In this document: positions 1-50,700 of the stretch, piece by piece
How the letters are laid out: the number at the start of each line of letters is the position of its first letter
Position numbering within the stretch: position 1 is the stretch's first letter
Assembly (NCBI GenBank): GCA_025201805.1
Contig: MU619237.1
Location: 378,784 to 442,783 of the forward strand
Direction: 5' to 3'
Origin: Parasitella parasitica
Taxonomy: Eukaryota > Mucoromycota > Mucoromycetes > Mucorales > Mucoraceae
DNA: 64,000 nucleotides
Notes under the pieces: model-generated
What the model saw: only the letters and a program-made list of their open reading frames with translations
The model's database searches: none
What the model was told of the DNA's origin: nothing
Position numbers and translations under genes: made by a program

Positions 1-142
1 ACCTTCGCGGCAATGAACATGCCATGATGTATCGCATTTGATGCAAATTCCATATTCACATTATTTTTAATAACCGCATTGCGTGCTCTCTCTCTGTGTC
101 TCTCTCTTTTTTTTTTTCCACATAATAAAACATCCAACCATT

Positions 143-18225: not shown

Positions 18226-19252
18226 ATGGTATGTAATGTCATGGCAAATCTACAAAATCAACTGTAATATGATGTATGGGTTCGATGGATAGATGGATGT
18301 GTGGATGTATGGATGTGTGGATGTGGGAAGGGAGGGCCTATACGGACAGACAGACCAGGCAGATAGATAGGACTGCTCGCACCATACATCATAACAGTGT
18401 ACAGATTGAAGCACTATGGATAATTTCGTATTAAATACATGTTGCATGCTATAGGCTCCCACCAAGAAGACCACTGGTAAGAAGGTTGCTCCTTCTCCTT
18501 ATGCTGTCAAGGGAAAGCAAACTGGCAAGACTGCTGCCAACCCTTTGATTGAAAAGACCCCCAAGAACTTTGGTGTCGGTCAAGATGTCCAACCCAAGCG
18601 CGATGTCTCTCGCTTTGTCAAGTGGCCCCACTATGTTAAGCTTCAACGCCAAAAGAAGATCATCTACCAACGTCTCAAGGTCCCTCCTGCTCTTAACCAA
18701 TTCACTCAAGTTTTGGACAAGAACACTGCTACCCAAGTCTTCAAGTTGATGCACAAGTACAGACCTGAATCCAAGAACGAGAAGCGCAATCGTCTCCGCG
18801 CTGCTGCCCTTGCCAAGTCTGAGAAGAAGGAAGTTGCCAAGACTGACAAGCCCGTTGTCATCAAGTATGGTATCAACCACATCACTGCTTTGGTTGAAGC
18901 CAAGAAGGCTCAATTGGTCGTCATTGCTGACGATGTTGACCCTATTGAGTTGGTTCTCTGGCTCCCCGCTCTCTGCCGTAAGATGGGCGTCCCTTACTGT
19001 ATCATCAAGGGTAAAGCCCGTCTCGGTACTCTCGTCCACAAGAAGACTGCCACTGCTCTTGCTTTGACCGAAGTCTCCGAAGCTGATAAGGCCGAGTTAG
19101 CTACTATTGTCTCTGCTGTCAACACCAACTTTACTGAGAAGTGGGAGGATGTCCGTCGTCACTGGGGTGGTGGCATCATGGGTCCCAAGTCCAACGCCAA
19201 GATGGCCAAGCGTGCTGCCATTGCTGCCAAGGAAATCGCTGCTCGTCAATAA
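18226..19252 (+). CDS. RPL8: 60S ribosomal protein eL8 (L7a/L8)
   Basis: The first coding exon is only the ATG (18226-18228), followed by a 226-nt intron (GTATGT...ATAG) and exon 18455-19252. Product 266 residues beginning [11 protein letters not shown]. The body is clear eL8: [25 protein letters not shown], the L7Ae RNA-binding core with [17 protein letters not shown] and [15 protein letters not shown], and a C-terminal [12 protein letters not shown] component of the large ribosomal subunit that binds 28S rRNA domain I. Codons look strongly optimised (AAG, GCC, GTC, CTC), as expected for high expression. The intron contains a GGATGT microsatellite. Confidence 0.97.
18287..18328. repeat. GGATGTGT/GGATAGAT microsatellite in eL8 intron
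   Basis: Imperfect tandem GGAT(G/A)x units within the first intron of the ribosomal protein gene. Confidence 0.8.
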
Positions 19253-20157: not shown

Positions 20158-22657
20158 TCTGCGTAGGGTTAAAGTCTTAATAAGAGAGACGCTGATAACT
20201 ACTGTATATAGACAAAACATCAGAGCGAGTGCACAAACCAATTGGAAGACCACGCCGACATTTCTTCAGATCAATTTTCTGGTAATCACAAATTTCAGCA
20301 TTATGGCAATCTCTTCTTTTTGCTACAAAGCGAGCCTCGCTACATCGCCTCACTCTGTCGGCTGGTGAACCTATCAGAAATTGATACGCTACTACAAACT
20401 GTCATGTTTACACTATATGGCAATCAATACGAAAGCAGAGAAGAGAATCTGCTGTTGACTATGTTTCAGGTACGCAATTTGCTTTACGAGCTGCTGCAAG
20501 ACAAGTCCTCACTGCGCATTGTTATAATGTACTTATTTAGAATGTACTGGCCGCTCAGTTCGAGGGAGCAACTGAATTTGGCTCGTTACTTCGAGCAAAC
20601 ACGCCTGTATCTCGCATGCTGACAACATACACCAGAAGAGGCCCGGGTCAGACTTATTTGAAAGCTGTGCTATCGAAAAAAATCAACGAACTGATCGACC
20701 AAAACGATCTGAATCTACAGATAAACCCTCTAAAAGTGTATGACGAGGTAATTGAAGAAAAGTGTAGACTGGGCACTTTACCGCCTGGATTTATGAAGAG
20801 TGTTACTCCTGAATATGCGGCTGAAAACAGCGATGTGCAAGCAATTATTCGACCAAGACTAGAGAAGCTAATTGAAATTGCAAATGGCTTTCTGTCAACC
20901 ATTATTGAGTCGCTGGAGAGTATCCCATACGGCATCCGCTGGATCTGCAAACAGATTAGATCGCTCACCAAAAGAAAGTATCCACATGCCACAGACAGCG
21001 CCATATCTTCTCTGATAGGCGGTTTCTTCTTTCTTCGCTTCATCAACCCTGCCATCGTCACCCCACAAGCATACATGTTGATCGACTCTAATCCTGGCCC
21101 AAATCCAAGAACCACACTAACGCTGATTGCCAAAATGCTACAGAATATAGCCAACAAGCCTACGTACGCCAAAGAATCCTACATGGTACCAACAAATCCC
21201 TTTGTCGAAACAAATAAACAGCGGCTGCAGCTTTTTCTAGATGATATTTGCAAAGTTAGTGATTTTTACGAATCATTGGAGATGGATCAATACATGGCAC
21301 TTTCACGCAAAGACATTTCCATCAACATTACACTCAATGAAATGTTTAGCATGCATCTGCTACTAGATCAGCATGTTCAGAAGCTTGCGCCTGAGCCTAC
21401 ACATAGACTACGCATTCTGCTGCAAGATCTGGGGCCTGTGCCAAAGCAAGTGCCTCGCAATTTAAATCGACTCATCCAACTGCCGCTGTACAGTCGTTGG
21501 GAGACAACGCCAATGATGGATGGACTGCTGCAACGACAACCACAGCAACAGAAGACAAAGGAGGAGGAAGAGGCTGAAGAGCAGCAGCAAGATACAAGCA
21601 TTGCTTTTACCTCACCCGAGAACAGCATTACGCAGAACGACATTGTATATATGGAGACCAAATCAATATTTGTGCAAATCTTAAGGTCATTACCACACAC
21701 ACAAAAACTGCGTACATCCAACGGCGTTTTGTTTGATTTATTGCGCATTTCAGAAGCAGCAGGCTCTGCAAAGGATCCTCAATTGGCAATCAAAGGCAGC
21801 AAGGTACGAACCATGTTAAAAGAACTGGAAGAATCTGGTATTGTGAGTCGGCGTAATGACTACGCATTCTTGGTGCAGGAAATCAAGCAAGAGTTGATTC
21901 ATTTGGGCGATCTCAAAGACCGTGTGATTCTAGAGATAAAGTCTTTGGAGCAGGTATTCAAGACAATCCAGGACCACAACGACTATCTCCAGAGCCAGCT
22001 GGGGACTTACAAGGCCTATTTGCAGAACGTAAGAATGCAAAGTGCTGGTGGACCAAATGACCAGAGAGTACTTGACAGCAATAATACCTCCAATACACCA
22101 GCTTTAATTCGCCAAAACCAGCAACATCCATTCAGCGATACTACAAACACAGCAATAAAAAGAAACGCTGCAGCTTCAACACCAGTAAAAAGTAGTAACA
22201 ATAAAAAAAAGCCAACTGGGCCTTTCAAATTCACACATCAACAGCTAGAAAAGGATGGCGTTATTGTCGAGTCTGAGGTACCAGAATCCCGGAAAGCTAA
22301 TATATTCTTAATGATACAATCGCCTATCACCGGCACCTTTATTATATCTTTGCATTACAAAGGAAGAGAGAAACCTATACTAGAAATTGACTTGAAACTG
22401 GATGATCTTCTGGAAAAGGTAGTAGCGGATGTGAGACTTGGCAAATGTTGATTAATCACTAACCGAATGCGCATTATTAACAGCAAAAAGAAAAGATAAA
22501 ATATCTTGATCTTGAGTATGTGAAACTAAGCATAAGCAAGATTTTACAACTATTGAATAAATCGTTCAAAGGAAGAAGCAGCAGGTATTTTTACATACAT
22601 CAATTACAAGAAAAATATGTTCTGATAGATTTTTACTCTAGACTTGGCTTTTTTTAA
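19661..22657 (+). CDS. IQGAP-type Ras GTPase-activating-like protein
   Basis: Exons 19661-19895, 19955-20088, 20212-20469, 20541-22418 and 22484-22657 give 892 residues. GRD-type GAP domain spans about residues 150-480 with the structural [12 protein letters not shown] motif near 370 and the [12 protein letters not shown] helix. A RasGAP C-terminal domain follows (about 575-880) with the DLGPVP...LPLYSRWE linker and RSLPHTQKL, broken by polyglutamine/glutamate (540-556) and Asn/Ser/Lys-rich inserts. There are no calponin-homology or IQ repeats, so the layout resembles fission-yeast Gap1/Sar1 and Dictyostelium GAPA rather than full IQGAP. Likely role: small-GTPase control of actin, cytokinesis or Ras signalling. 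Intron 2 holds a GA microsatellite. Confidence 0.85.
20101..20156. repeat. GAGACA/GA microsatellite in intron
   Basis: Runs of GAGACA followed by about 14 GA units inside intron 2 of the RasGAP-like gene. Confidence 0.9.
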
Positions 22658-25799: not shown

Positions 25800-27175
25800 A
25801 TGTTTCAATCAAAACTTGCAAGATTTTCGGGCTTTATGGCTCTTCAGCCAAGAGTGTCTCAAATTTCTCATTTACCCAGGGTCATCCATGTTTGTTCAGC
25901 AGTATCACTTAGGCAGGCATCCACTAACAGGTATACTAAGGGTCGAGTGGAGCTTGACCGAACAACCGAATTGAATCCAGCTCAAACTAAAGGTCGTCGA
26001 TATGTTGAAGTGGACTCGTCATTCGCTAAAGCCAACAGATATACATATGCTATGCCAAATGACATCTATGTTGCTTCCGAAAAGGTCACCAAAATTTTGG
26101 AAATTGGTACAGTCGACGATGCTGCAGATTATATCAGAGCGCTCCCGATTTATTTACAATCGCCCGTTGTATGGAACCAACTTATCGGCCACTGTGCAAA
26201 GTATGGCAGAGCTAATTATGCAGAGCATTTCTTTTCACAGGTAAAAAAAACTTGGGGATCCATTTTTTTTTTATTACAAGTAATTAATATTTCTTTTAGA
26301 TGAGGAAGCGTGGCCTTAAACCAAACGAACACACATTTAGCCATATGCTGGTAGCATATTTTAAAAGCACATCACCTCGATCCATTCAATTCGCTGAGGC
26401 ATGGCTCAGAAAGATGAAAGACTTTAATTTTGATCCAGCGCCGATCCACATTAACAATTTGATGCGAGTTTATAATCAATCAGGACGTCCTGAAAAGACC
26501 ATAGACCTTTTGAAGCAAATATCCACCAGTGGTAAAATACTTCCTGACGCTGTTACTTACAGCATTGCACTTCAAGCATGCCCACAATTACCATCTTATG
26601 TCAACAGTGAAGAAGTGCGACACATCTGGCACGATATACTAAGCCGTATTGACAAAAAACAGCCCCGTCAATCAACTACATTATTGTCTCAAAAAGCAGC
26701 CGATATTATCTGGAAAGAAGACGCGATTCGTCACGACAAGACAAAAGATAGTGAACTGGAAATAGATGACTCTCTGGTGGTAGCTCTTTTGAGATCCGTA
26801 ACACAGACTGCAGCTACTGAAAGAGATGTATTAACTGGGATTGAGGCTATTGAGAAGCTTTATTCATTGTGCCCTCCACGAGCTGGTGAACTTATGAAGA
26901 AAAATGGCATATCAAATCAAAATAGACAGCCTGGATTTGGATTTCAGCCATCAGTCAAAGTATTAGATGCAATCTTACGGTTTTCAGGTGGTTTGAGAGA
27001 ATTCAAATTGGGTAAAGAATACTTTGATTTGGCGTTACAGCAGTTTCCTCGATTAAAACCCGACAAGTATGTGAAAGATGCCTATGCTTGGATCGAAACC
27101 CAAATACAAAAAGGACACCAGTTAGGGAAGAGACGCTACAGCAAAAAACCACAACAGCTGCATAGAAAAGGTTAA
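25800..27175 (+). CDS. pentatricopeptide-repeat protein, probably mitochondrial
   Basis: Exons 25800-26240 and 26300-27175 give 438 residues. The first 50 residues are Arg/Ser-rich and poor in acids (MFQSKLARFSGFMALQPRV...), fitting a mitochondrial presequence. Helical-repeat segments follow with PPR character, for example VWNQLIGHCAKYGRANYAE, KRGLKPNEHTFSHMLVAY, INNLMRVYNQSGRPEKTIDL and ILPDAVTYSIALQAC. Probably binds organellar RNA; no close named family recognised. The C-terminus is basic (KRRYSKKPQQ). Nearest gene on the left flank of the sex region. Confidence 0.8.
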
Positions 27176-29786: not shown

Positions 29787-31370
29787 ATGCTTTCTGTAAA
29801 ACCAATTTATGATTACCTTGTTATTGGAGGTGGCTCTGGCGGCCTTGCTTCTGCTCGCCGTGCTAGTGGTATCCACGGTGCCAAAGTAGCGCTTATCGAA
29901 GCTCAACACCGTCTCGGTGGCACTTGTGTCAACGTAGGCTGTGTTCCTAAAAAAGTTATGTGGAATGCTGCATCCATTGCTGAATCTCTTCGTGATGCCA
30001 AGTCTTATGGGTTTGGTGATCATGAACCTGTCAAGTTCGATTGGCAATTCTTCAAAGAAAAGCGTGATGCTTATGTCAAGCGTCTCAATGGCATCTATGA
30101 ACGAAATCTGGGCAATGATAAAGTTGAACATATTCAAGGCCATGCTAGTTTTGTTAATAACAACACTGTCCGGGTCCAAACATCAGAAACTGAGTCAATT
30201 GAAGTTCAAGCAAAAAAGATTTTGATTGCTACAGGTAAGTTTTTTTTTAGCCAAGAAAACAGAGAGGGCATATCTAACATTGTGTCAAGGTGGTCATCCT
30301 TTGATCCCTGATATCCCAGGAGCTGAGCATGGCATTGACTCTGATGGCTTTTTTGAACTCGAACACCAACCCAAGAGAGTTGCTGTCATCGGTACCGGCT
30401 ACATTGGCATTGAATTGGCAGGCATTTTCAACACTTTAGGAACAAAGACAACTGTTTTCTCTCGTACAAAAAAGATTCTTCGTAGCTTCGACAGCATCAT
30501 CCGCGACAACTTGTTGAAAGAGATGCAGGCTGTAGGCGTTGATTTTGCTTTTGATTCCAGTGTTCAGGCGTTAGTACGAGAGGGAAAAACTGGACCTATT
30601 ACCGTTCAATATAAATCTGATGGTAACTCTGCTTCTTTGGAGGTGGATACTGTTGTTTGGGCTATTGGCCGTTTGCCCAACCTCAAGAAGCTCAATTTGG
30701 AGGCAGCTCATGTAACTTTAAATGACAAGGGCTATATCGAAGTTGATGATTATCAGAATACAAAGTCTGATGGTGTATACGCTTTGGGCGATGTCTGCGG
30801 TAAAGCCGAATTAACTCCTGGTAAGTGTGCCCATTGACGAGATCTTTTAAGCACTACTAAATTTGATGTATTGCAATAGTTGCTATTGCTGCTGGTCGCA
30901 AGTTGTCTGATCGTCTCTTTGGCGGTGAGCAATTTAAGGATTCCAAGCTTGATTACGATAATATCCCTACTGTTGTTTTCTCTCATCCTACTGCCGGCAC
31001 TATTGGTTATACTGAAGATGAAGCTCGTGAAAAGTTTGGTAATGAAAATGTCAAGACTTATACCAGTAAATTTACCAACATGTATTTTGCTATGCTTGAA
31101 CACAAGGAGCCTACTGCTTATAAGCTTGTCTGTGCCGGTGCTGATGAAAAAGTCGTCGGTGTTCACATTTTGGGCAGAGGAAGTGATGAGATCCTTCAAG
31201 GTTTTGGCGTTGCCGTTCGTATGGGTGCTACCAAGGCTAACTTTGATGCCTGCGTTGCTATTCACCCCTCTGCTGCTGAAGAATTGGTAAGTTTTTAATA
31301 CAACTCATTTATTTCAACCATTTCAAAAAAAAAAAAATCTAATGCAATCCTGTAGGTTACCATGCGTTAA
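29787..31370 (+). CDS. GLR1: glutathione reductase (sex-locus flank gene glrA-like)
   Basis: Exons 29787-30234, 30290-30820, 30880-31286 and 31356-31370 give 466 residues. Hallmarks: FAD loop VIGGGSGG near residue 14, redox pair in [16 protein letters not shown] (Cys about 47 and 52), NADPH loop [18 protein letters not shown] second FAD motif, and the C-terminal [12 protein letters not shown] with the catalytic His. Reduces glutathione disulfide with NADPH. The last coding exon is 15 nt (VTMR and stop). No long presequence, so cytosolic as modelled. A glutathione oxidoreductase (glrA) beside the helicase is part of known Mucorales sex regions; here 2.0 kb separates it from the helicase. Confidence 0.95.
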
Positions 31371-33410
31371 AGAAATGTTCATGTAGAATAGTAGAAATAA
31401 ACAATGTATTCTATAGATGTTGAGAGTGGTTCATCAGGCAACAATAGCCTAACAACATGATTACATAAGATAATATCATGGCATCAAGTTATTATCTATA
31501 ACAAAAAGCGTGTTGTTCATTTCTCTTGAACTGAAATATACCTAGATTTTGGTTTTTTTTTGTGATAGTGGTTTGCAAAAATGATGATGGAATACATAGC
31601 ACAGAAGAGGGAATTGGTTTTATGTTGGAAATAGAGTGAACTATGAATCGTGTTATCATTGAAACGAGCTTTTGGTATTGAAAATGAGCATAAGCAATAA
31701 ATTTTGATCAATAGAGCTAAATTTAAAATATCTTTTCTCTTATAATCAGAAGATTCTGGACATTATAAGCTGAAAAAACCTATAATAGCTTGTCAAACAA
31801 ATTTGGTGTTGAAAGTAAGATTGACTTGGTCTAGAAGTATACTATACGCTTGTATTTAGTGATTCTTACTGTATTCGTCGTGTTAATTTTGACTCAATCG
31901 TATATACCATCTCGACCATTGACATTTTGCAATGTATGTCTTGTATATCTAGTTAGTTGAAAACGTTCATACGAAAATGACTGAGTGTTCCAACAAATGT
32001 CTTTGCTTGCCTAAAAGATATCCAAGAGTACGAAAGCACCATCCTGGTATAACACAAATTCATAGCTACGCGAGCTATCAGTCCTTATTAGCACGAAAAA
32101 TGTTGGTGGAAGAGACTAAAAACCGCAAATCATGGAAAAAATAAGAGATCAAATGTTTAGAAAATTGTATCCTTTGTGTAAACGAAAGGCCTCATTAGCA
32201 GCACATGAAATGAAACCTTGAGCGGTTTTATTCGTTCATCGATAGGTTCCTCGTTGTGCTTTGATATTCTCATTACTATAACAATGTGTAAAGATCGACT
32301 CGAGACTTGTTGAATCATACTGTTAAATGTAAATAATAACACTGATTGAACTAGATGGAAAGAGGTAATATTATTGATATCTTAGAGATAAAATAAAATG
32401 GGAAATTTACATGGGATAAATTGGACAACTCAAAAAGCATAACCCGTACTTTTATGTAAAATTGAAGATCATTTTGTTTATCATAAGAGGGTTCGCTTTT
32501 TCAAGACAGTGGTATCATCACCGCCCACAATACTTTTAGGCCACATTTACCAAGCTATAAATTTTGCTCTTGCAAGAGTATGTAAAGTAAATGTCAGGAT
32601 CAGATACTCCATAAAAAACACTTGAAATATTGCTAAATTGGCTTGATTCAATAGTTTGACAATATTGCTTTTCATACAAAAAAAAAAAAAATAGTTTGAC
32701 AATATTGACGAAAAGAAATTATTTCCATGGGATTTTGCATGTTGATGTCAACCCTAATTTTTGTCTCAAGATATTTGGTTTGAATACCTCGATATGATAA
32801 AATTCAACTTATCGATCCAGGTGTAACACTTTTTACCAAGGCATATTTCAGGACATGCCATTTAATTGGTGTTAAGTTTACATTTGCTTTTTGAGAAGCG
32901 TTTTTCTTTGATATTCTAAAAACCAACATCATCACTATCGCTAAGCGATTTGAATAAAAAAAAACTAAAGCTAAAAATCAATATGATAAAGCGAATAAAT
33001 TAAAAATATTTTGTCTTAGCACTGTAGAACTTTATTCATGCAGCTACACTTGTAAAAGCTCGAAATGTTGATCTGATGCAAATTGAGTCGATTTCAGACC
33101 CAACACAATGCTTCTTTTTGAAGGCTGTACCACTGGGTAGTTTAAGAATGCATGAACCACATTTGTGGACAAAGCAATCAGGGTAACCGAGGGTTCCTTG
33201 ATGACTGCACCTCCTCCCTATGTTCTTTTTTTCTGAATCCAGGGCCACTCTTCTTTTTCCATAAAAGTCTATAAACCGAAACTTGATTTTTATCCATATA
33301 TGGGTAAAGACCGGAACTCGTTTGTTTTTCTTTACCCCTGAAACTCGGACCAACTTAACTAAACAACGTAACTTTTATTTCTTCAAATCATGGCATACAC
33401 AGAAGGTGTA
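31371..33410. other. 2.0-kb decayed stretch between glrA and rnhA
   Basis: No supportable gene; both flanking genes point into it. A 105-residue minus-strand ORF (33036-33353) with several cysteines has no recognised domain and no clear start, and may be relic coding sequence. A 17-bp direct repeat lies at 32651/32691. Confidence 0.45.
32651..32707. repeat. 17-bp direct repeat around a poly-A tract
   Basis: ATAGTTTGACAATATTG occurs at 32651-32667 and again at 32691-32707, with a run of A just before the second copy. Confidence 0.9.
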
Positions 33411-36400
33411 TTACTTCAAGGGAGCTTGGCAGACAGGACATTTTTTCCCTTCAGGACGCAAGACAAGACGTCTGATAATTCCACATTCTGAATCCAAGGT
33501 ATGTCCACATGGTAACTTACAGCTCAAAGGTTTGATACAAGAGCCGCATGGTTCACAACAACGGCGCATACACTGATGATTGCACTCGAGGAACTTCTCG
33601 CACTGCTGCTTGCAGCGGTATTCATTATGATCATAAGGATGGCATTTCAAAGTACACTGAAAAATAAACAATTAGAGATGATTGTCATCAGCTTAATTTA
33701 CCCTTACTCTGTGTCCACAAGGTAACAGTTCATTACACTGCTGTTGGCAGCCACCTTCTTCCACAGTTGTGAAATCAACGGGCCATTGAACCTGCGTAGG
33801 TTGGCCATGTTTTTGGCACTTGAGAACCAGTTTAGTGCCAACCATATTTTCATTCTGATCTTCAAGGTTGCCAATTATTTCATTCCACAAGTCGCTTCTT
33901 TCACACAGAAGTCTTGCATTGCCAAGAATGTAGAAGCCCTACATGTATAGCGATATTGAGCAATCTATCGTTATATGGACACACGCATCATACTTACATG
34001 TTTTGCTCTGGATAAAGAAACACAAACACGATTGACAACCTTCAAGAAACCAATTTGGCCAGCTGCATTGCTTCTTACCAGGGAAAGAATGATGATTTTG
34101 TTTTCTTCACCTTGGTAGCCATCCACACTACTGACTTGGATCAGCTCTGGATCCATATCTGGTCTTCTTTCATCTCGAAGGGCTCGCTTGATCATGGTCT
34201 TTTGGCCTGAATACATTGTAATGATTGTGATTTCCTGTGGTTGATATCCTTGCAAAAGCAGATACACTGCTAATTTGGCTGCCATTTTGGCTTCATGTTC
34301 ATTGACCTTGGATGCAGACTCGCTCATATTGGTTTCGTCTTCATTATGAGCCAAAAAGAATAGCGATTGATCCATTCCACGAATGGGAGGATATGTCAGC
34401 ACATCAGGATGGTCCATAAGAGGAGGGTCCTTGTAAATTGGGTTGATGAGAGAACGAATTTCAGGACGCATTCGTCTTTGATGAGACAAGCGCGTGAACG
34501 GAAAGTCGTTCATGACTAGACGCTCAAACAGCGAGACACCTAGTGCATGGTTTTCGGCCAATTCATGAACTGCTGTTGATGGTCTTAATTGCTGGTGATC
34601 ACTAGTAGATATCATGTATTAGTGCCTACATCTCGTATCAATCCCAAGCTACTCACCCGATCAATATAAGGTGCTCCAAGGAATTGGTCAGTGCAGATAT
34701 AATGTGAGATTCCAACATTTCAGCTGCTTCTTCCACAACCATGACTCTAGGACGCATTTCCTCTAGCAAATCGTGGTATTTGGCCTGCATTGGTTTAGAC
34801 AACGTTATGTGTGATCAAATGGGGTACTTACTGCAGCTGTACTTGTCATGCCAACAACTCTGTTCTGCCTGCAAATCCTTGCTTCAAAATCGGCTATAAC
34901 TCTTCGAATACTTTGCGATTTCTCGTAGTACTGCCTCATGAGAGCGTTCAGCTTGGCTTCCAATGCGGCATTTCTCTGATCTATCCACATTTTGTGTGCC
35001 TTAAGGCGTACAGGCAGGGGCCACATCGACAAGTCGTCATCCTTCATCCAGCGCTCCAACGAGTGATTGTGGCTATCCTGCTCCAGCACAGCTTCGTCAA
35101 TATTGTCGTCGAAAAAGTTGAATTTGGTTGATTCAAAGGTGTTTGTGGTTTTCATTTTACTATAATTGACAATCTTTCTTTCAGGGCGCTCACCAGGAGC
35201 GACTTCGGTTTGTCTTTTGTAGTTTTTACCGATCTGAATAAACGGATATTTGGTTTCTGGCTGATCATCGCCTTGAAAGCCTATGATGACTTCTTGAAGC
35301 TCTTCTTCTTCGATCATATCTCGCTCGTCAGTTGTATCGTCAAACACCAAGCCCTTTTCTTGTTCAAGAATACTTTGCTTCAAATCATCAGCTAGCGATG
35401 ACATTTCTCCAGCATCATCAACATAATCAATCGCATCCTTCAGCCATCCTTCAACAGGGTTGATGGTCTTTTCCTTTACGGAGCTCACTGTATTAGGATT
35501 TCCACCAGCCCAATCATTATTTGCGCCTTTGTTGCTGGTTCTACCTTTACTGGGATGTGGCTTCTGTCTGTTGTTATTTCTGTTATTTCTACTGTTGACA
35601 GGCGCTTTGGGCTTGACTGGCTCTGAGCTGACAACCCATTCGTCATCAGAGTCGTCAGCGACATGATAGTCATTGAGACTAGTCGCTGCTGCAACAGGTT
35701 TGCTCTTTTCCCGTTCGCCTGCTCTTTTTAATGAATCGATCTGCTTGGGTCTCAGTCCTTTGATGCTCTCTATGTATTCAATTGTGACGCATGGCTCCTC
35801 ATATAATTCGATGATTGTTTCCCTGATTGCCTTTACAAGGCCATCGCGGTCTCGATACAAGCGGGCTATTCCACGGGGCCGGTCATGCTCCTTCTTCAAT
35901 TCATACAAAGTGTGTTCTTTCAGCAGTTCAGATTTTGACCTTCCACCTACACGGACGATTTTAGTGGTGTAATCCAGAATGTGTTCTAAAAATTGATCGA
36001 GAGCTTTTGCAATCGAATTTGAGTTAATCGGTTGGATATCGCAAGTTTGGCACTAGCAGATCTTACCATGATTTGTCTGGCAAATACAAACAATGGGGCC
36101 CATAGAATTATCGAAATTGTTCAAGAGTACTCGCATGGCATAAGTGCCAACAAAAGTCTTACCAGTACCCGGAGGTCCTTGCACGATCGACAAATTATGT
36201 GATAGAATGGTTCTCAAAGCATCCATCTGGGTGCGATCCATGCCAGTGTTGTAGCTGGGCCATTCTTCCAGGATATTCACTGGCCAGCGATCGCGACGTA
36301 TGTTTCTTGACTGGACGTTAATGTCGTAGACATTTTTCTGTGCGGCGTAGTGAGGCACAAGAACTTCGTTTGACAGCTTTACCAAATAATCAGAAAAGGG

Positions 36401-37585
36401 CAACTGATCCGCTTTGACGTTTTTAAAGACGTTGAGCACATGACGGTATGCTTCAAAATAGCCGTCTGTGGCTTCAATCATGACATAGGTGTCATTCTCG
36501 GTTAAGGATGGATCTCCAAAACCCAACGGCTGTTCGTCGTCATCCCTTTCAAGATAAATGTCCACTAAATACTCGAAGCGATTTGGTCCACGCATTGGCT
36601 CGTCTCCTCTGTTGACGATAGTAGCAACCTTAAGATCCTTTTCAAAATGATCCTTGGAGAGCAGCACTAACGTACCAGGCATCAATCTCTTGGACTGCTG
36701 CCAGTTCACACGAACATAGTAAGGTAACCGAAAGCTGACTCTGTATAAGGGCTGGCGCGTACCAAATACAATTGCGTTCAAATGAACCTATACGCATGTA
36801 AGAAAGCGAAGGTTTTGCTACAAGTTGGCTGCTACTTACATGCTCGTACAAGCGGTATGGTCTTTGTTGAGATACTTGCTCCATCGAAATGCCAGCATCA
36901 TCATTGATGTTGGTATCATTGAAGACTTCCTTGTATCCTTTCACGGCTTTCTGCAGAGGTATCAAGAAGTCTTGGCGCATCAATTCAAAATGGGTATACA
37001 AATACTGGTCAGTGCTGTCGTATGGTTGTTTGACACGGTTTACAGGGACGTCCGGAAACGGGTCTCTGTAATTGCGTTGATCCCACTCATTGGGATCTCG
37101 AAGCTCTTCAGCTATCACAATTTGTTCAAAGTTTGGAATAATGTCCTGTCCACGGAAGGCCGTATAGTCTGTCACTTTTGAGAATATTGGTGCGTCCTCA
37201 ATATCCATATTCAGTCGGAAAGTCGTCGTAGCCTCTGGTTCTCGCGTGCTAAACTTGTCTTGTACGTAACCATGGTCTTCTTGTCCTTGCTCATTCCAGA
37301 CGGCTTGCGTCTCGGGAGAACCTCCCCAACCTCGTTGCGAGTCAACTGCCCAGCTCTGAGATGGAGCAACGTTTCCAAAATCAAACTTTGAGCGTGCAGG
37401 TGGCGGTCTCCTGCTAGGAGTTATCTCAAATTCATTTGTAAGGTTATTAAAATTGGCGGTAACGACATTTGGTCCACTTGTGCTATGTGTTTACATTGGT
37501 CAGAATCACGCCTTCATTATCAATAGCTCTTTTATTACAATTGTGAATCCCAGTCGCTTTTGGTGCTGTTGTTATAGCGAGACAT
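33411..37585 (-). CDS. rnhA: NFX1-type zinc-finger RNA helicase (sex-locus rnhA-like)
   Basis: Eight exons: 37585-37539, 37482-36840, 36787-36067, 36003-34832, 34784-34657, 34601-33998, 33938-33708, 33656-33411. They give 1263 residues. Superfamily 1 (Upf1-like) helicase: Walker A GPPGTGKT near 435, motif II VVEEAAEMLES near 877 as in ZNFX1, GDHQQLRPS, HQRRMRPEI near 945, VDGYQGEE near 1064 and VSLSRAKH. A low-complexity Asn/Asp-rich insert of about 390 residues lies between motifs I and II. The C-terminus (about 1150-1263) has NFX1-type CGH and Cys pairs. Closest known types are ZNFX1 and fission-yeast Hrr1, which act in small-RNA silencing. Position 73 bp from an HMG gene identifies it as the sex-locus helicase. 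Confidence 0.9.
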
Positions 37586-37658
37586 TGTTTTGAAACACTA
37601 AAGAAAAGCTAAAATACAGAAACTAAAGTCTTGGATGAACTATGACCGGCATTTAATT

Positions 37659-38240
37659 TTATTTTTCAACGTTAATCCATAAATCTATTATGGTACGAAA
37701 ATCGATGTTAGCTCCATCAATTATTAAGTGTGCATCATCAACACTAGATGAAGGTAAAGTAGGATTTGATAATTCTTTTACTATATAATCAAATGGTTCA
37801 ACTGGAGATACCGGTTTGTTCATGCAATCTGTCATTTCAATCTGTGTGTGAGATGTAGAAATCTCGTCACTGGATGAGCTTGATGATTCAATTACTTGAA
37901 TGCTTGTTTTTTTAGTTTTTGATCGTGGAAGTCGCTTTTTCTTCGTAATAGGATTGAATTTGTAAAGCGGATGTAATTTTTTGTGCTGTATGCTCTTTTC
38001 TTCGGCAACTCGGCTCCACTGTCTTTTTTCATATTCTGACATTAGTTTCCAAGCATCCCTTGCCATACGTGATATATCACACTGCTTTTCTTGCTGGTTC
38101 ATGACATCGCGAAATTTAGAATTAAAGTAGGTCCGGAAACAAAGGAATGAGTTTGATGGACGTTTAATTTTCTCTTTAGTGGGTCCAGTCTTCTGGGATT
38201 CTGAAAGAATGTCTTCAGCAGTAGTGATAACTATCTTCAT
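37659..38240 (-). CDS. sexM/sexP: HMG-box protein, candidate sex determinant SexM/SexP
   Basis: One exon, 193 residues from the ATG at 38240; the open frame continues upstream but without an earlier ATG. The HMG box spans about residues 25-97, starting IKRPSNSFLCFR and continuing with DISRMARDAWKLM, YEKRQWSRVAEEK and HKKLHPLYKFNP. This is the mating-type class of HMG box (compare the Mat-Mc/MATA pattern with ISR and HxxxxPxYK). A basic run, KKKRLPRSKTKK, is a likely nuclear signal; the tail is Ser/Asp-rich. In Mucorales a single such gene, sexM or sexP, beside an RNA helicase determines mating type. Which allele this is cannot be told from the sequence alone. It is transcribed toward rnhA, 73 bp away. 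Confidence 0.85.
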   Translation of the reverse strand: MKIVITTAEDILSESQKTGPTKEKIKRPSNSFLCFRTYFNSKFRDVMNQQEKQCDISRMARDAWKLMSEYEKRQWSRVAEEKSIQHKKLHPLYKFNPITKKKRLPRSKTKKTSIQVIESSSSSSDEISTSHTQIEMTDCMNKPVSPVEPFDYIVKELSNPTLPSSSVDDAHLIIDGANIDFRTIIDLWINVEK

Positions 38241-40047
38241 TTTTCTCAAGGATATAATTGTAGGAGGAAAGAAAAATGCCCTAATTTGACTCAGGCACGG
38301 ATGATTTATATTTTCCAAAACAATGAAAACGGAAAGTGCAGCCAGGAGTTACACGGAGGGGTGGCATCATATCAATGCTTCGGCATGATCTACTATACTA
38401 CTCAAATTTTAAAAAAAATCGTGTTACCTCCTCTAATGAAAAAGAGGATTGCAGAGTTTAAACCCATTTTGGATAGTATAGAATCTTTTCAAACAAAAAA
38501 TGTGCAATCTTCATTGTTGAGCTCCTGAAAAATTTAAAGAATCTATAGGTAATCACTTCACTTAAGATATTGAGATTAAGAGTTGTTGAAAGTAATTTCA
38601 GGGACTGTTCGTAGTAAGGGCTTAGTAATAATCCCATTATTTTGCTAATAATAAATCTTGTTATTAGATCATTACTACTATATATCAGCCAGCTATTAGA
38701 CACATACCTTTACAATACATATCATTTCTAAAGTTCTGTCCTTACATGAGATTGTATCGCCTTTCATTTAGGGAAAACGAGTCTATAACATTTGCTCAAG
38801 GAATAAATAAATATCCAAGCAATACTTCTTATCAACCCAGTTTTCAAAAAATAACGAAGACTATTACAGAATAGCACTTTTCTCACCTTGGCATAAGTGA
38901 TGTGCCGAGCCTTCGAAATCAACCACAGGAAGATGCTGCAATAGTTCCACAATCAACATTGGCCTGGTACAACAAGAATCAACCCGTTGTACCTATCAGA
39001 GCCACGAGCCTACAGCAAAGATAAAAAAAAAAAGGCCACCTTCATCTAACAAATATAAAAAATCCAGAAATACAGAAAGAATTATCGATATATCATGCTA
39101 CCGATTTGAAATGCAGTTTGGAATTAGGTACTTGGAGGCCAACATTTTGTGCCATCTCGATAATCTTATTTTCAATTGCTGCATGCGGTATATATTAAAC
39201 TGCTTTACAAACAACATTGATAAATACATTGCTAACGCCTTTTGATTCAAAGTAAATCTTACAATGGTATTATCTAGCCTGGCTGCTTTTGGTGCTATAT
39301 TATTGCAGTAGTCAAATCGAGTACTGTTTTCTGGACTCAGCATAATGCCTGGAGATTCGGGTCTAGTACTTCGATATTTAATTCGTAGTATAGTATTAAT
39401 GTATATAGGCTTTTGCGCCATTGTTCGTTATTACAATATTCTACAACCTTACGTTCAAAACCTGTTCATACAGAGAGTGTCCATGTCTGCATTATTACTT
39501 ATGCTGGATGTCGTCCTCGCCTACTCTTTTATTTTTTCGTATGATATTGTTGGGTTACCCTATTGATCTTCCAACAGCCGTCAAATAGAGATGGTCAAAA
39601 AGACTACACCAAGACTTGCTTCCATACAGTTGTATGAACTTGTATCAAAACTAACTTGGAGTAACCAATGAATCTTGGTCTCACGCCTTCTATTTTGTGG
39701 CTATTAAAAAGTTATAGATTCAAATATTGGCTTCTAAATCCAGATCAGACAAAAATGAGACTGAAATCAAAAGCCATGCAATGGGGAGCAAACTTGATGG
39801 CGGTTGCGATGTAGAAAAATATTACCAAGACGTGAGATACGAGGCTGACGATATATAATCTTGCGTTCAATAATCTAACCTGGCCATTGGTGCTGTACAT
39901 TGTGCTCTTTGACAGATATCCCAAAATTGTTTCAAGGTTAAACCTGAAGGTTTCAAACGTCATATTTAATAAGTCTCAGTGTGTCAGCCTTTGTTATCAA
40001 TTTTTTTCTTCCCACTTTTTCGATTAAAATTAAATTAGAATAGAACA
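38241..40047. other. 1.8-kb decayed stretch between sex gene and algA
   Basis: No intact gene. Short ORFs on both strands (38286-38528 +, 39098-39421 -, 39345-39566 +, 39745-39963 -), two of them hydrophobic, have no recognised family. In Mucor- and Phycomyces-type loci a triose-phosphate transporter lies here; I see no intact one. Confidence 0.5.
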
Positions 40048-41446
40048 ATGGGACCGAGGAAGCCAGAAGTTGAATACATTTCGTTATCGAAATTACAAGC
40101 CCAAAAACGAGCAGAACCAACCGAAAAGACAAGGGAGGCTTACAAGTGCTTGGAAAAGTTAGCAAACAATGCATTGAAAAGTGGGCCATACAGCATCACT
40201 TTCGACAAGAAGCAGGCCCATACTGCACCAACAGGCGATATGCGAGATTTCCTTAGTTACGCTCCGTAAGTTACTCCAAAATGCTCTCAAACGATCGATC
40301 TCTAACCTCTTGCTTTATATCTTAGATATTGGTGGCCTGTAAGCTGAGATGATGTTTTCTTTGTGATTTTGAAAACTGAATAGCGTATTAAAACTTAGGA
40401 ACATCCCAACGATCGCAACACAAAATACATCCGTAAAGACGGTAAAAAAAATCCAGGTATTACATTGCAATGCATGTGTCTGACAAGGGGTAGAGCCACT
40501 GATAGATGAATTTTTTTTATTATAGACGTAGCGGAAGCAAGAGATCAATGCCAGTTAGAATCCGTCGCAGAGAGCATACAGTTTTTATGCTTGGGATACT
40601 TTTTTTTCAATAACGAAAACTATGCTATTCATGCGGTCTCATTACTGGACTCTTTCTTTGTCAATGAAAAGACGCGAATGAATCCCAATCTCAATTATGC
40701 TCAATTCGTAAGAGGCTCTCAGAATCACTCGCATCGAGGCCGCGGCGAAGGCGTCATTAGCTCCAGAGCGTAAGAAGCAGGTTATTTGTTTTTTTAGACA
40801 CATAAAAAAAGCTAAATTAATATTCTCTTTTAGCTTATCCCGCATCGCGAATCTTTTACCGCTTTTAGATGCATTCCATGGCTACTATGCATTAAAGCAA
40901 TATATACACTCTTGGTTCGGCTCATATCTTGAATGGCTCCAGTCGAGTCGTGTCGCGTTAGAGGCTGCAAAAGCTACAAATAATATCCATACGTGGTATA
41001 CTGTGCAGGTAGCTGCAATAGAGCAATTCTTGCACCCTGTATCCCCTCAAGTATCCAACGTACTGTACACATTCTTCAAGGAATCCCTGCCAAAGCAAAT
41101 GGACGCCAAGACAGGCAACCAGCCGCACGAATCAAAGCGAACAAGGCCGCTTCATTATCTCACCTTCAACCTGCAAGCCATCGTATTTCTCGCAGAGGTA
41201 TCCAAGGACGTCGGACTAGATGTTTGTCGTTCCAATGATCTGGTTAAACTAGCGACGTACATCACGAAATATGCATCTGACGATAATCAGGACATTACAG
41301 AGGCCGTTCGCTGCGTCGAGATCATTGCCAACGGAACTGGCAATCAAGACGAAACCTTTCGATTTTTCCTTGACAAGGCTTATCATTGCAAATTTGCAGA
41401 GAAAATGGGTGGCCCCAAAAACGCGATCCATGTGCTGTGGTCTTGA
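40048..41446 (+). CDS. algA: alginate-lyase-family protein (algA-like)
   Basis: Exons 40048-40265, 40326-40338, 40399-40456, 40526-40769 and 40834-41446 give 381 residues. Family signs are the substrate-cleft SYAPYWWP, YIRKDGKKNP, a HSHRGRGEG segment and TWYTVQVAAIEQF. Exon 2 is only 13 nt and encodes most of the YWWP tetrad. The segment that in active lyases carries the catalytic Asn-His pair (NNHGTWY type) reads NNIHTWY here, so the catalytic His appears displaced or lost. No signal peptide: the N-terminus is charged, which suggests an intracellular protein. An alginate lyase gene next to the HMG gene is, as I recall, described for some Mucorales sex loci where the transporter is absent. 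Confidence 0.82.
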
Positions 41447-41647: not shown

Positions 41648-44600
41648 ATGAGAGTTGCTATTGACCGCGGGCTGCCGTGGCTACTCATATTTATATCGTT
41701 CATTTCAGTAGGGTAAGTTTTTTTTTGCAGCAAAGGCTCAGAGTAATGTATGTGGTACGACACTGACATATGCTGACAGAACCAAGGCAGCAGATGGTAA
41801 TACGCCCCTTCCATCATCCTCTTTGTCTTTGCGCAATGGGATTGACCAACTGGATTTACCAGTGCTCAATGCTGACCAAAATGCGGGAAAGGAGGCTCTC
41901 GATGATATATTTGCAATAAATGCCGTTACTGTAACAGCTACAGCAACAGCCAAGGTGTCTTCTACTGTCACAAGCACCATCAAGTCAACCGTTCCCGCCT
42001 CCAGTTCAACCACTGGCACAGTTTCTCCCAAAAGCACTTTGACTGTTGTTGTTTCTACCACTGTGTCACAGTCTTCTACATCAAAAACTAGTTCTGCGGC
42101 ATCTAGTACTTCCAGTAGGAGCACTTTGACAACAGCAACTACAACGACAGCCAAAACGACTTCCAGCTCTACGTCTTCACCAAGGTCGACGTCAACACCT
42201 ACGCCAACGCCAACGCCAACGCCTACACCTGAGCCAGTTCCAGATCCAGTTGTTTATCCAACGGAAATCGATACTGATTTACTAATCTTTTGCTTAAACA
42301 ACATTGATCAGACCAGTTGTGCAGATCTCTTCCGCCTAATTCACTTCTTTTTCACTGCAAGGCTCAATTCAGATCCGGTTCTCGTGGAGTATCTTTTGGA
42401 GATTGGCGTCGATGTGCCTGAAACAGATGTAGTCACTGCGACCTCTACGTCAACATCTAGTGTAAGTTTCCTCTTGTTTACCTGACGAGCTTGGTATATT
42501 CAAACTTTATAATGTGTAGCTCTTCTTTACTGAATACACAACGACTACTGTCAGTACAAACTCAATCGAAGTTGTCAGATCAACATCCACAGTATACGTA
42601 GATTTCGTAAGTACTGGGGAGTGCAAGGAAAAGATACAAGTCTACTAATAGCTGTTGATAGAGCGATGATGGCGGCAGTACAGCTGTCGAAACTAATGGA
42701 CAGATCTCCTGCTCTCCTGCACCTCCCCCCGAAACTGTCACGGCCATTTCGACTCAAGTTTCCACCAGCACTGCCACTGTTCTGCACGTTTCAACTGCCA
42801 CTGTAGTGAATCTGGTTACGGTAACACCTGATCCAGCACTAGGCACACTGACCGCCGGTGGGCCTGTTGAATGTGGTTTGGTTTTGGCTAATACTGCAGT
42901 ATTCAGCTGTCTGGCTATGATAGCGCAAGTCACTCCACCACCGTTTCCATCTGAATGCAGTGAATTGCCCGACTACTTGGGTCCCATTGATCCACTGGCA
43001 GCATCTTGTTATGCTAGCGAACCTGTAGTAACTGATACTTGTTCTGCCTTACAGATAACTCCTACTACTGCCACCTACACAGTAACAGATCCTTCATTCA
43101 CAAGTACGGTAACCGCTCCTGCTTCAACTGTAACAGCTCCTCCCACCACAATCACCGAGCCTGCTTCCACTATCACAGCTACAGAGGTAATTGTTGTTGC
43201 TGATCCGCTAGGCCATGATACCTGTGGGTTAATTTTGGGCGGTAACGGCGAGGGTATGTTGGATGGTGATGTGGCGTCCTCTTGCTTGTCCAGTTTGTAC
43301 AGCAGAGTATCGTATCTACCTTATACAACTACACTTGTTCCTTTGACCGAAACAATATTTGCAACTACGACCCAAACCGACACATTTACGGCTACCGAAA
43401 CATCGCTAGATATTCGATTAATTACTGCGTCCATAAGCCATACTGTTACAGAAACAGCCACGGATTTCGAGACAGAGTATGAGCTGACTACCGCTACCGT
43501 CACAGAGCATGATACATCTACAACTACAGCTACTGTAACAACTACAGATACAGCTTATAGGACAGAGCATGAACTGACTGTGGCTACCGTAACAAGCACA
43601 GAAACTCAGACCAAGACAGACGTGGATATCAGAATAGTTACAGCCACTATCGAATCTACCTTGACTACAACTGTGCACGATACTGTCACTAATTTCGCAA
43701 CGCTGACCAGTACAGACATCAAGACAACTACAGACACAATTACAGCAACAGCAACTACCACAAGTACAGATCGTTTAACAGATATAGACATCCGACTTGT
43801 CACTGCGACGGTGACAACCACATCCATACTGACAGACTATAAGACTATCACTGACTATGCAACTCTTACTGCGACAAGTTTCAACACGATAACAGAAACA
43901 GCAACAGCCACTGCCACAACTACAGCAACCAATTTTGTAACTAAGGTAGACGTTAGCCTCGTTACTGCAACCATCAGCGCTACAGCAACAGTGACAGAGA
44001 AGGACGTTGTTACCAGTTTAGCAACCATCACAGCAACAGACCTGAGAACTACCACAGACACCATCACAGCAACATCTACAGTTACTGAAAGAGTCACTGA
44101 GACTGAGGTTAGCCTCATCACTGAGACTCTGAGCAGCGTTGCCACTATTGTTGAGTATAATACTGTAACTGACGTATCCACAGTTACCAGCAGTGTATTT
44201 AGCACCATTACAGACGTCATTACTGATACTTTGACCACCACTCAAGTCAAGACTGAAGTAGACGTTCGCCTGGTTACCGCCACATTGACCACCACTGCTA
44301 CCGTTGTCGAGCGTGACACAGTAACTAGTTTGGCGACCATTACAAGCATAAGCACAAGCACAAGCACAAGCATTGGTACAGTAACAAACACACTCACCGA
44401 AACAGCAACGTCTACACAGACTCAAACAAGAGTAGACGTAAGCCTAGTTACTGCCACTATTACAGCAACGTCTACAGTTTCAAGTATCGATACTCTCACC
44501 GATTATGCAACAGTGACAAGCACAAAATACAGCACATTGACAGATACAATCACATCCACATCCACATCAACGTCTACACTCATTAAACATGTCACAGACG

Positions 44601-47152
44601 TCGATGTTCGTCTGATCACAGCTACTATAAGCACAACAGCCACTATTACTGAGCATGCTGTATCTACTGAATACGTCCCAGTAACTCAAAGCGGCACTGC
44701 AGGCACCATTGCTACTGTAACTATATCAGAGCTGGTCACAACAACGCAGCGTGTAACTGATGTTGATGTCAGGCTCATTACGGCTACAATGACTACTACA
44801 GCCACAGTAACTGATCGTGATATCATTACGCAATTCAATACAATCACCAACACAGCAACAAGCACTATCACCTCTACTGCCACTGCTACGACAACTGCTA
44901 CCGAGCGGGTGACAGATGTAGATGTCCGTCTGGTTACAGCCACGCTGACAACGACAGCCACTTTAACTCAGCATGAGACTCTCACTGAATTGGCCACGAT
45001 AACAAGCACTGCAACTACGACTAGTCCTGTCACTATAACCAGCACTGCTACAACCACAACAACTACTCATGTCACGGATATAGATGTCAGGCTTGTCACC
45101 ATAACAAACACCCAAACATCGACTCAGCACGAGACATCCACTGCTTATGCAACGATTACAAACACAGAGACATCGACTGCAACCAACATTATTACTGATT
45201 TCAGCACCATCACATCGACAGCTACTCAGCGTGTGACAGATGTGGACATCCGTTTAGTAACTGCAACAATCAGCACTACTTCTACAGTGACAGAGCGTAG
45301 CACAGTAACAGACGTCGCTACCGTCACTCGAGATGTAATAGAAACCGCCACCATTACATCGACAATCACTGACGTAACTACAGCCATTACCACATCAACA
45401 GCTCACATTACAGATGTTTCTGTGAGCTTGGTTACAGCCACCATCCATGATACATTGACAGCTACTGTGCATGACACTATTACGTTGCATGATACAATAA
45501 CAGATACTACAACCAACACAGTTACCGCGACAACCACTGCTGTCAAGACTTCTACTCAGTATGTCACCGAAGTGGATATACGATTGGTCACGGCCACCAT
45601 CACGACGACAGCTACTGTCACTGACCACAACGTGTCCACCTCTTTAGCCACAGTGACACAGAGCGTCTTTGAAACAGACTTTGTTACAGAAACTTGGACT
45701 ACAACAGCAACTACCACATCAACAGATTTACGCACTAGTGTGGATGTCCGTCTTGTTACTGCTATTATCAACAACACAATTGTACAAACATCGCTCCAAA
45801 CGTTTACGTCTTACCTGCCACTTACAATCAACGTGACAGACACTCAAGTATTGACAACAACCACAACAGCTACTAGCACAGACACTGTGCATGTTACTGA
45901 TGTAGACGTTCGTCTCGTAACAGCCACAGTTGACAAGACGGATACTGCTACTACAACGACTACGGAAACCTCCTTGGGTACATCCACGACAACTGAGTAT
46001 GTCACTAAAACGGACGAGGTCCATCTGCATATTGGAACAAGCGACCATATTGTGCATCAAAGCGATTTGACTATAACGTGTATCGGTGAAGACGGCAACG
46101 TGGAGATGCATGGCTACGTAACGAATGATTTTGGAGCTACAACCGTCTATTATGGAGACTATGATGAGGATGGGCATAACCATCACTATCACGGCCATGG
46201 AGACTACTACGGAGGAGGTTATTACAACGGGCACCGTTATGGCAAGTACTACGGAAGCAGTGAGGTCTGCAGCACATTCACTACTATCGATGAAAACGGT
46301 AGCCAAGTTACCGTCACTTCGACCGAGATGATTGCTCATACCGATATGCTTGATTATACTTTGGTAACAGCAGAAAGCACTACATATGGGGTCGGACAGC
46401 AGCTAGTTGTTAGTACAAATATTGACATGTAATAAGGAACAACTTCCATTAACTTGATTTTCTTTAAATGCTAGTATAAAACCGTTTGCTCAACGTCAAC
46501 CAAGAGCCCAACTGCAGAACCCACAGCTGATTTCAGGGATCCATCAATATCAAGCATGGATGTCAATAATTTGATCATCAACTGCGAAACTTTGACTGAA
46601 ACAAAGTCAGAAACGTTTGGCCATTGCTCTGTAAGTTTTTATTATACGTGTATCTAAAGACGAAACGACTCATAGCAACTGCTGCGATAGGATGTATTTA
46701 TGACTTATACATCGTCATTGTGCGAAATCTGCAGTGCTCCTGTTCATGTCACGTCTACTCAAGTACTGACGATCCCAGTCATTATGGAAAGCCATGAGGC
46801 CAACCACTCCACGAAGCAAGACGATACAGAGGTTGTTTACGTCACGGAAACAGTTGGGGAGCCTGAAGCAACAGCATATATCGCTTCTAATAGCATCAGT
46901 GACACTGAAAATGGCGAGGATACAGAAGTAGTGCATGTCACTGTAACTGCGCAAGGCGAGCCGCTTGATATTTCCACAGGACCAGCTACAAGCGGCGGTG
47001 ACGAGCAAGAACATGCTGCTGCTTCAAAACCAGAAGATTCAGAGGGCCATGTTGTTTTCGCAACTCCAACTATTCAATACAACCAAGGCTACTCGGAAGA
47101 AGACCCACATCTTTTGTCTGCCACAAAAACTGTCAATGGAGGAGCTGTTTAA
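41648..47152 (+). CDS. giant Ser/Thr-rich repeat protein, probably secreted or wall-bound
   Basis: Exons 41648-41712, 41780-42461, 42520-42606, 42662-46408, 46475-46630 and 46691-47152 give 1732 residues. The N-terminus is a likely signal peptide (hydrophobic core LPWLLIFISFIS). A Thr/Ser/Pro region with TPTPTP follows, then two Cys-containing globular-looking segments (about residues 165-215 and 300-450). About 16 repeats of roughly 55 residues come next, each centred on V(T)DVDVRLVTAT and followed by Thr/Ser-Val/Ile alternation. A Gly/His/Tyr-rich patch (GDYYGGGYYNGHRYG) and an acidic C-terminus close it. No GPI-type hydrophobic end. Mucin-like, likely heavily O-glycosylated; adhesin or wall role is inference. 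The donor at 46409 (GTTAGT) is the least certain join. Confidence 0.75.
43400..45930 (+). repeat. 16-copy protein-coding tandem repeat
   Basis: About 16 degenerate units spaced about 165 nt, marked by the core (T/V)DVDVRLVTAT. Divergence between units at DNA level is substantial, so the array is old or under codon drift rather than freshly expanded. Confidence 0.85.
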
Positions 47153-47792: not shown

Positions 47793-50700
47793 TCATTTGG
47801 ATTGGTCTTTTTTTGCCTTGGCAATAGCTAACAGCTCATTGTATTCACCTGAGCGAATACACATTTGTTGGAATATGCTTCCCTCTTTCGTCATCAAGTC
47901 GTACGGAGCATCGAATTCTTTGACTTGGCCTTGATCCAAAACCAAGATGCGGTCGTAGTCAGCAACGGTACGGATACGATGCGCAATGCAGAGCAAAGCG
48001 GAATCTACAAACTCTGTGCGAATGGTTTGCTGGATCTTGTAATCAGTGTCAAAGTCGACAGAAGAAGTAGCCTCGTCTAAGATAATGAGGGCTGACTTCT
48101 TGACAAGAGCACGGGCCAAAGCAATCAATTGTCGTTGACCTTGGGACCAGTTACTGCCATTTTCAGTGACCACAGAATCCAGTGAGATTTGATCGCCTGC
48201 ATCTTGCTGCTCGTTGTTGGCTTCATCGATTAAATGAGACCGTTTCAATGCTGCCCAAAGTTCAATATCGTTATGTTGGTCAAACGGATCCAAATTACTG
48301 CGAAGAGTGCCCGAAAAGAGAACGGGGTCTTGAGGGATAATTGTTAAACGAGACCGGAGTACATCGAGCCCTATTGTATGGATATCAACGCCATCAATCT
48401 TGATACTACCGCTAGTGGGATCCATGAAACGGAAGATGGAAAGTGCTAGTGTTGATTTACCAGAGCCTGTGCGACCCACAATGCCAATCTTTTCACGAGG
48501 GTTCACCTTGAAGGAAACATTGCGAAGAACAGGAGGGTTTTCGGGGGCATATTGCATCACTAAATCTTTGACTTCAATAGAACCGTGCTCTGGCCAGTTG
48601 GCGTTGGGCTCAGTTTCAGCGATATAGGTTGGGGGTTCTTCTTCCACATCCAAATATTCATGCACTCGTTCAATGGCATTCATGTTCATTTCGTTCAAGG
48701 CATATTGGCGGACAACCCACAGTACATGGTGAGTAAACATTAAAGAATAACTGAGAGACAAACCGGCAAGCCCAGGATCAACCCAACCGCGAGCTAGAAC
48801 CAAGACAAATCCAGTACAGAAGCCAACAAAGGCACCCAGGACATCAGCACGGCAATGCAGCCAACGGTTAGTGGCCCACATCCACAAGAAAGGGCGGTTG
48901 TTGCTGTCAATCTTGTTGTGGTTCTCATAGATAAACCTGTATTGTGATCCAAACGCACGGATCGTTGCAACACCATTGACGCTTTCATTGAATTGAACGT
49001 AGATAGGACTGCGGCTGACAGAGTTCAGGCGCTTGAGATCGCGAGAAGTTCGAAGATAATACGAGCCAATAGCAAAGAAAACAATGGCAATAACAACACC
49101 AGGAATCAGAAAGGCAGGCGTAATCGCAGACACCAGCATGATAACGCACAGCGTAGCAACAATGGAATAGAGTAAGAATGAAAGCGCAGGAGACGTTTCT
49201 TGATCAATGGTAGCCAAATCAGAAGAAAATCTGTTGACAATTCTGCCCAAAGGCGTAATATCATAGAAACGAACCTTGGCGCGCAAGATACGATTCAGTA
49301 GCTCGCTATGAATGCGACGAGATGCCTTTAAAGAGCCGGTAAAGAGGATAAACGTACGAAGCGAGGTCATAATCAGTGCAACAATGCCAATCAGAAAGTA
49401 GACAGTGAGGTAGTACTTTACATCTACAGGCGCTCTGGTGACATCCAATGCAGTAAAAGCATGGTAGATGGGTGCAGTGTACGCATTCATCAAGTTGGTT
49501 TGACCCAAGATTGAGAAGGCAGAGTTGTGAGCAGAAAAGACACCGATATTAGAGGTGCCGTTGCTGTGATGATCCTCTTGTCCATACGCAGCAGACCACA
49601 CCTTGATCCAATAATCTTGAGCCAAAACACAGGCTTGAGCAACACCAAAGAGAACGAGAACAACAAGAAAGAACTTGAAACCTCCTGAAGCGTCGATGTA
49701 GGCTTTATAGACGCTCCAGGATACACCACCCTCAGCACGCTCTTCATCCTGTGTTAACTTTCCACCAGCGGCAGTTTTTTTGCTGAAGTTTTTGGGGACA
49801 GCAGGAATAGGACCTTCAACAGCAGCTTCTTCAGCAGTAACCGTCTCTGCTTCCTCAGACCGAGAAAGTTCGTCACCAAGGACACCCGATTTCAGCAATT
49901 CTTTGGGAGAACCCGCATCAACGACCTCGCCATCCTTCAATGCAACAATGTAATCGGCACTAGGGAGACACAAGCCAACATGGTGAGTAACCAAGACAAT
50001 CGTGCGATGCTTCATCAATTCGCCAATCAAGCAGTTTTCATACAAGTGTTTAGCCGTGTGGGCGTCGACAGCACTGAGACAATCATCCAAAATGACGGTA
50101 TTGGCTTGCGAATAAACGGCACGAGCAATAGCAACTCTCTGCTTCTGTCCACCACTCAATGTGATACCTTTTTCGCCAACTTCTGTAGCATCTCCAAATT
50201 CCAAGATATCTAAATCGCGGGTTAATGCGGTCATGTACAGAACAGCTTCATAACGATCCTGGTCAAACGGCAGACCAAACAAGATATTGTCGCGGATGCT
50301 ACAGTTTTGTAGCCAAGCAGTTTGAGCGACATACGCGACGCCGGACACAGCGCCACCCATAGGGCTCGTCTTGTTGGGGATTGTACGAGGCAGAATAGCA
50401 TGGCCAGAGATGCAGAAGGTTTCGCCCAACAAACTAGCCAGCAGCGTAGTTTTACCAGATCCAGTGGGGCCGCATACAATAGAAAGCTTGCCAACGGGGA
50501 AGCTCAAGTTGAGGTTTTTGATAGACGGCTTGTTGTAGCTATCCCTTTTGCTATCCCAACTGAAGGTTGCATTCTCTACAAAGCCAAGAGCGACACCATG
50601 ACGAGCAGCTTCCAGATTGATTTGAGCAGGAAGCTCAACCTCATCTTCATCCAAAAACTTTTCCACACGCTTTATAGATACATTGGCCTGGATGAGGAAC

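Follow-up and report, generated by a model that had tools for sequence, protein, structure and literature searches.

Gene content of the locus

Four genes lie between positions 29787 and 41446 of the 64-kb window (the whole stretch of Parasitella parasitica DNA that was analysed), in the order glrA, rnhA, an HMG-box gene (sexM, see below) and algA, and the reading frames of all four gene models are open. The glrA gene (29787–31370, + strand) has four exons and encodes 466 aa; its product matched the glutathione-disulfide reductase model TIGR01421 at 658.2 bits, against a cut-off of 556.15. The rnhA gene (37585–33411, − strand) has eight exons, and its 1263-aa product carries Pfam ZNFX1 and AAA helicase domains. 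The HMG-box gene (37659–38240, − strand) is a single exon of 582 nt including the stop codon, encoding 193 aa. Beyond an interval of 1.8 kb lies algA (agl; 40048–41446, + strand), a five-exon gene of the alginate-lyase family whose 381-aa product matched PF05426 (E=1.1e-50); one of its exons is just 13 nt long (40326–40338) and keeps the frame through a "YWWP" motif. Exon borders were placed by eye, and the rnhA model alone was compared with a database protein, to which it was equal letter for letter (the 1263-aa "RNA helicase [Parasitella parasitica]", P0002). A first-pass annotation made from the letters of the window had placed the same four genes at the same positions, and the models and their domain matches (PF00505, ZNFX1/AAA, TIGR01421 and PF05426) agree with it.

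The remainder of the window contains further open frames. These include frames for a ZW10/Dsl1-type protein (83–3034), a trehalose-phosphate synthase/phosphatase (11259–12992), a ribosomal L7Ae-family protein (18545–19252), a RasGAP (20616–22451) and a PPR protein (26300–27175). About 1.4 kb beyond algA there is an open frame of 1208 aa (42806–46432, + strand), rich in Thr, Val and Ser, and built of degenerate repeats around "VTDVDVRLVTAT", for which no Pfam match was obtained at E<=1e-5; a 1346-aa open frame (47793–51833, − strand) encodes a full-length ABC transporter, in which two ATPase domains accompany two membrane domains.

The HMG-box gene and the mating-type call

The HMG box occupies residues 25–94 of the encoded protein (PF00505, E=5.6e-8, 33.5 bits compared with a cut-off of 25.4). 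The whole protein matched the SexM protein of P. parasitica (P0001, UniProt A0A3G1J4X9) with 83% identity at 100% coverage, and at E=4.4e-100 a chance match is excluded. This SexM was the sole protein to pass E<=0.001 among 41 candidates in a single-sequence protein search, and the sole protein at E<=10 among 2001 candidates in a two-sequence profile search; the protein search requires shared five-residue words, and more distant SexM proteins can therefore escape it. Because SexM was the sole protein returned, we call the gene sexM and the strain minus, a call based on one database name. The first-pass annotation had assigned the gene to the mating-type class and had left the mating type undecided; the match with a named SexM bears out the class and adds the allele.

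Additional comparisons bear upon this call. SexM and SexP proteins share 6–14% identity among the formae of Mucor circinelloides (PMC3116813, table 4), so that a protein matching at 83% cannot be SexP, if the database record is correctly named. The gene is short and consists of one exon, which fits the sexM pattern; in M. irregularis sexM is 579 bp and sexP is 933 bp, both without introns (PMC5587739, section 7), and the call is supported because 582 bp resembles the former and not the latter. Naming by similarity can mislead, since the SexM of M. irregularis grouped with SexP proteins in the tree given in PMC5587739.

The function of the gene is predicted from relatives. By analogy with M. 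lusitanicus, SexM would be an HMG-box transcription factor induced by the pheromone trisporic acid, and a minus mycelium would require it for mating with a plus partner; in plus strains, the corresponding position would be expected to hold a sexP that is not related to sexM. In M. lusitanicus, sexM is expressed only under mating conditions (PMC5384783, PMC3116813), and its deletion leads to sterility (PMC3116813). Control of mating, allelism with sexP and pheromone induction are thus properties that we infer for P. parasitica from these relatives.

The two SexM sequences filed under the name P. parasitica are not the same. The protein encoded here and A0A3G1J4X9 are identical at 166 of 193 aligned residues (86%; 14% divergence), and the differences (27 substitutions, plus a 7-residue deletion in the protein encoded here) are mostly behind the HMG box: identity was 68/70 residues in the box, 19/24 before it and 79/99 after it. 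SexM varies little within M. irregularis (PMC5587739), and identities of 77% and 54–58% are given between formae of M. circinelloides (PMC3116813, table 5); the 86% found between the two P. parasitica sequences lies between the within-M. irregularis and between-formae values. This may mean that the name P. parasitica covers two species, or it could represent fast evolution of the protein or a misnamed strain.

The sexM–rnhA gap and the interval without tptA

The rnhA gene directly adjoins sexM and is the first gene on its 3' side, in agreement with PMC5384783, where rnhA heads the 3' flank; across Rhizopus, rnhA is described as a constant neighbour of the sex locus (PMC5982828). Its product is 83% identical to RnhA of M. 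circinelloides, 79% to that of M. bainieri and 79% to protein 143979 of M. lusitanicus, which is named RnhA in PMC5384783; identities to other genera were 69% (Thamnidium elegans), 53% (Phycomyces blakesleeanus), 54% (Lichtheimia hyalospora) and, over 82% of the query, 54% (Absidia cylindrospora). The suggestion in the first-pass annotation that the layout was of an Absidia/Lichtheimia type is unsupported, because these identities favour Mucor (79–83%) over Lichtheimia and Absidia (54%) and because P. parasitica belongs to the Mucoraceae. It described the gene as an NFX1-type helicase, and the ZNFX1 and AAA domains are present; the NF-X1 zinc-finger label comes from database relatives and from PMC5384783. 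At E<=0.001 the Pfam scan of the helicase returned the ZNFX1 domain, and models of the NF-X1 finger were not among its matches.

The gap that separates the stop codon of sexM from the ATG of rnhA at 37585 (37586–37658, − strand) measured 73 bp, the distance given by the first-pass annotation. A polyadenylation-like AATAAA at 37663–37658 (− strand) overlaps the sexM stop codon, for which reason the sexM transcript may end inside the gap, were this motif to act as a transcript-end signal. Since just 73 bp separate the sexM stop codon from the rnhA start codon, the putative rnhA promoter probably overlaps sexM or else sits in the gap itself. One form of M. circinelloides (Mcg) is reported to have its rnhA promoter within the sex locus (PMC3116813), and this is therefore a known condition that may hold in P. 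parasitica too. In M. lusitanicus, rnhA expression rises on mating (PMC5384783, PMC3116813). A promoter lying partly in sexM would be expected to differ between plus and minus strains of P. parasitica, because that DNA is expected to differ by mating type. In M. lusitanicus, rnhA is required for RNAi-based epimutation. A rate of epimutation that depends upon mating type, arising from different rnhA promoters placed partly in mating-type-variable DNA, is thus conceivable in P. parasitica, though we think it rather doubtful. The shortness of the gap nonetheless makes it easier to ask whether mating type alters the expression of this RNAi-pathway helicase.

The interval on the other side of sexM, between sexM and algA (38241–40047), is single-copy and corresponds to the place of tptA, the triose-phosphate transporter gene, in other Mucorales. 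The tptA gene is absent from this contig: a family search of the assembly gave 12 TPT-family matches, on contigs C5, C9, C10, C21, C22 and C40, and none of the 12 on the contig of the locus. No gene was recognised in the interval, where one of ten reading frames had a Pfam match and this was below the cut-off (VUPS, E=0.014). The interval is presumed to hold the sexM promoter. A transposable element was considered for this DNA and rejected, the sole match to the interval in the assembly being the interval itself. Weak short repeats in 37500–40060 came to two direct and two inverted pairs.

Remnants of tptA were looked for in 38241–40047 with tblastn, each of the 12 TPT-family loci supplying its longest reading frame as query. 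The best match, from query L024, was 28.6% identical over 77 gapped columns (E=0.006; 39312–39542, + strand) and consisted of a hydrophobic stretch in AT-rich DNA. Scores were compared with those from 500 dinucleotide shuffles, using four of the twelve queries (L017, L019, L021 and L024). The other eight were set aside: L016 and L025 because their longest frame is not the transporter, L018 because of a masked stretch, L020, L023 and L026 because of a lysine-run frame, and L022 and L027 because they repeat L017 and L021. The real best score was equalled in 4 of 500 shuffles. Taken by query, the real score was reached in 1/500 shuffles for L024, 29/500 for L017, 372/500 for L021 and 406/500 for L019; a true remnant should match L019 too, and this best transporter query stood at chance level, so that no tptA remnant is claimed.

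The usual order of these genes is agl/tptA/sex/rnhA, and M. saturninus is shown with agl/sexP/rnhA and no tptA, "like M. mucedo" (PMC7928374); R. microsporus has a sex locus without a flanking tptA (PMC5982828). The lack of this textbook neighbour is a point against the sex-locus reading; tptA was not taken as defining the locus, because published sex loci are without it as well. The earlier reading of algA as occupying the place of tptA stands insofar as tptA is absent here, but this is not a novel arrangement: two close relatives, M. saturninus and M. mucedo, have the layout of agl, sex gene and rnhA without tptA (PMC7928374).

Interpretation and comparison with known sex loci

The assembly searched comprised 30.7 Mb in 232 contigs. 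SexM gave seven matches at E<=1, of which one was strong (the gene described here) and the next had E=0.0015 with 37% identity; the nearest paralogues were 31–37% identical over part of the protein. Of 13 rnhA matches, six were the gene's own exons and seven lay elsewhere with 28–39% identity. All four matches to the algA protein were at this locus. A second gene of the alginate-lyase family occurs on contig C10 (38528–39388, − strand; PF05426, E=4.8e-16), unlinked to the sex locus. SexM, rnhA and algA each have their one strong match at this locus, and this pattern, seen with these three queries, would fit a heterothallic strain.

With a named-SexM match, rnhA adjacent to it, an alginate-lyase gene on the opposite flank and glrA on the far side of rnhA, the region 29787–41446 is, as judged from its sequence, a Mucorales sex (mating-type) locus, which was the identity proposed in the first-pass annotation. 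We consider it very probable (about 0.95) that it is the single sex locus of a P. parasitica strain that is heterothallic and of minus type, having the tptA-less agl–sex–rnhA layout with glrA beyond rnhA.

A homothallic strain, with a sexP elsewhere in its genome and this locus as one of two, would be a very unlikely alternative, although there are points in its favour. Two sex loci in one genome are described for R. microsporus var. azygosporus (PMC5982828) and Syzygites megalocarpus (PMC3834313); SexP is too unlike SexM for a search with SexM to detect it; and the assembly has 22 HMG-box matches, one of them at this locus, so that one other than sexM could be SexP. Neither rnhA nor algA, however, has another close copy in the assembly, and of the 17 other contigs with HMG-box matches, two (C22 and C40) bear TPT-family matches, which are not adjacent to the HMG-box matches and lie at least about 63 and 68 kb from them. 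P. parasitica is a heterothallic fungus, which also counts against a homothallic strain. That the HMG-box gene might instead be a regulator with no part in sex, adjoining rnhA by happenstance, has in its favour the fold of the protein, which is an ordinary SOX-like HMG box (SOX-9 being its best solved relative, E=5.6e-9, with SRY lower in the list at E=0.0005). Against this, the protein is identical at 83% over its full length to a named SexM, its nearest paralogues in the genome reach only 31–37% identity over part of the protein, and the gene adjoins rnhA, with glrA and algA to either side in the manner of published sex loci; we regard such a coincidence as improbable in the extreme.

The minus locus is thereby mapped exactly in a parasite of other moulds, and this map supplies a marker for strain typing and a start for finding the plus allele. 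It is a further case of the tptA-less layout within the Mucoraceae, and leaves knowledge of fungal sex determination unchanged. The sex locus of P. parasitica may already have been described (Schulz et al. 2016; Wetzel et al. 2012; Lee and Idnurm 2017; Idnurm 2008/2011); one paper that names P. parasitica together with sexM or mating type does so in a passage on another protein, TSP1.

Among the arrangements closest to the present one is that of M. mucedo and M. saturninus (PMC7928374), in which, as here, alginate lyase, sex gene and rnhA follow one another without tptA. M. saturninus bears sexP, whereas the P. parasitica strain bears sexM, and glrA, present here beyond rnhA, goes without mention in the portion of PMC7928374 consulted for the two Mucor species. 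In M. lusitanicus and M. circinelloides (PMC3116813, PMC5384783) sexM adjoins rnhA as in P. parasitica, and the RnhA proteins are 79–83% identical to the one encoded here; these species differ in having tptA between agl and sexM. The presence of glrA beside the sex locus is printed for R. microsporus and others (PMC5982828). R. microsporus and Syzygites megalocarpus resemble P. parasitica in having glrA near rnhA and in being without a flanking tptA (PMC5982828); an alginate-lyase gene such as the one found here goes unmentioned in the passages of that source on their loci, and Syzygites, unlike the strain as we read it, is homothallic.
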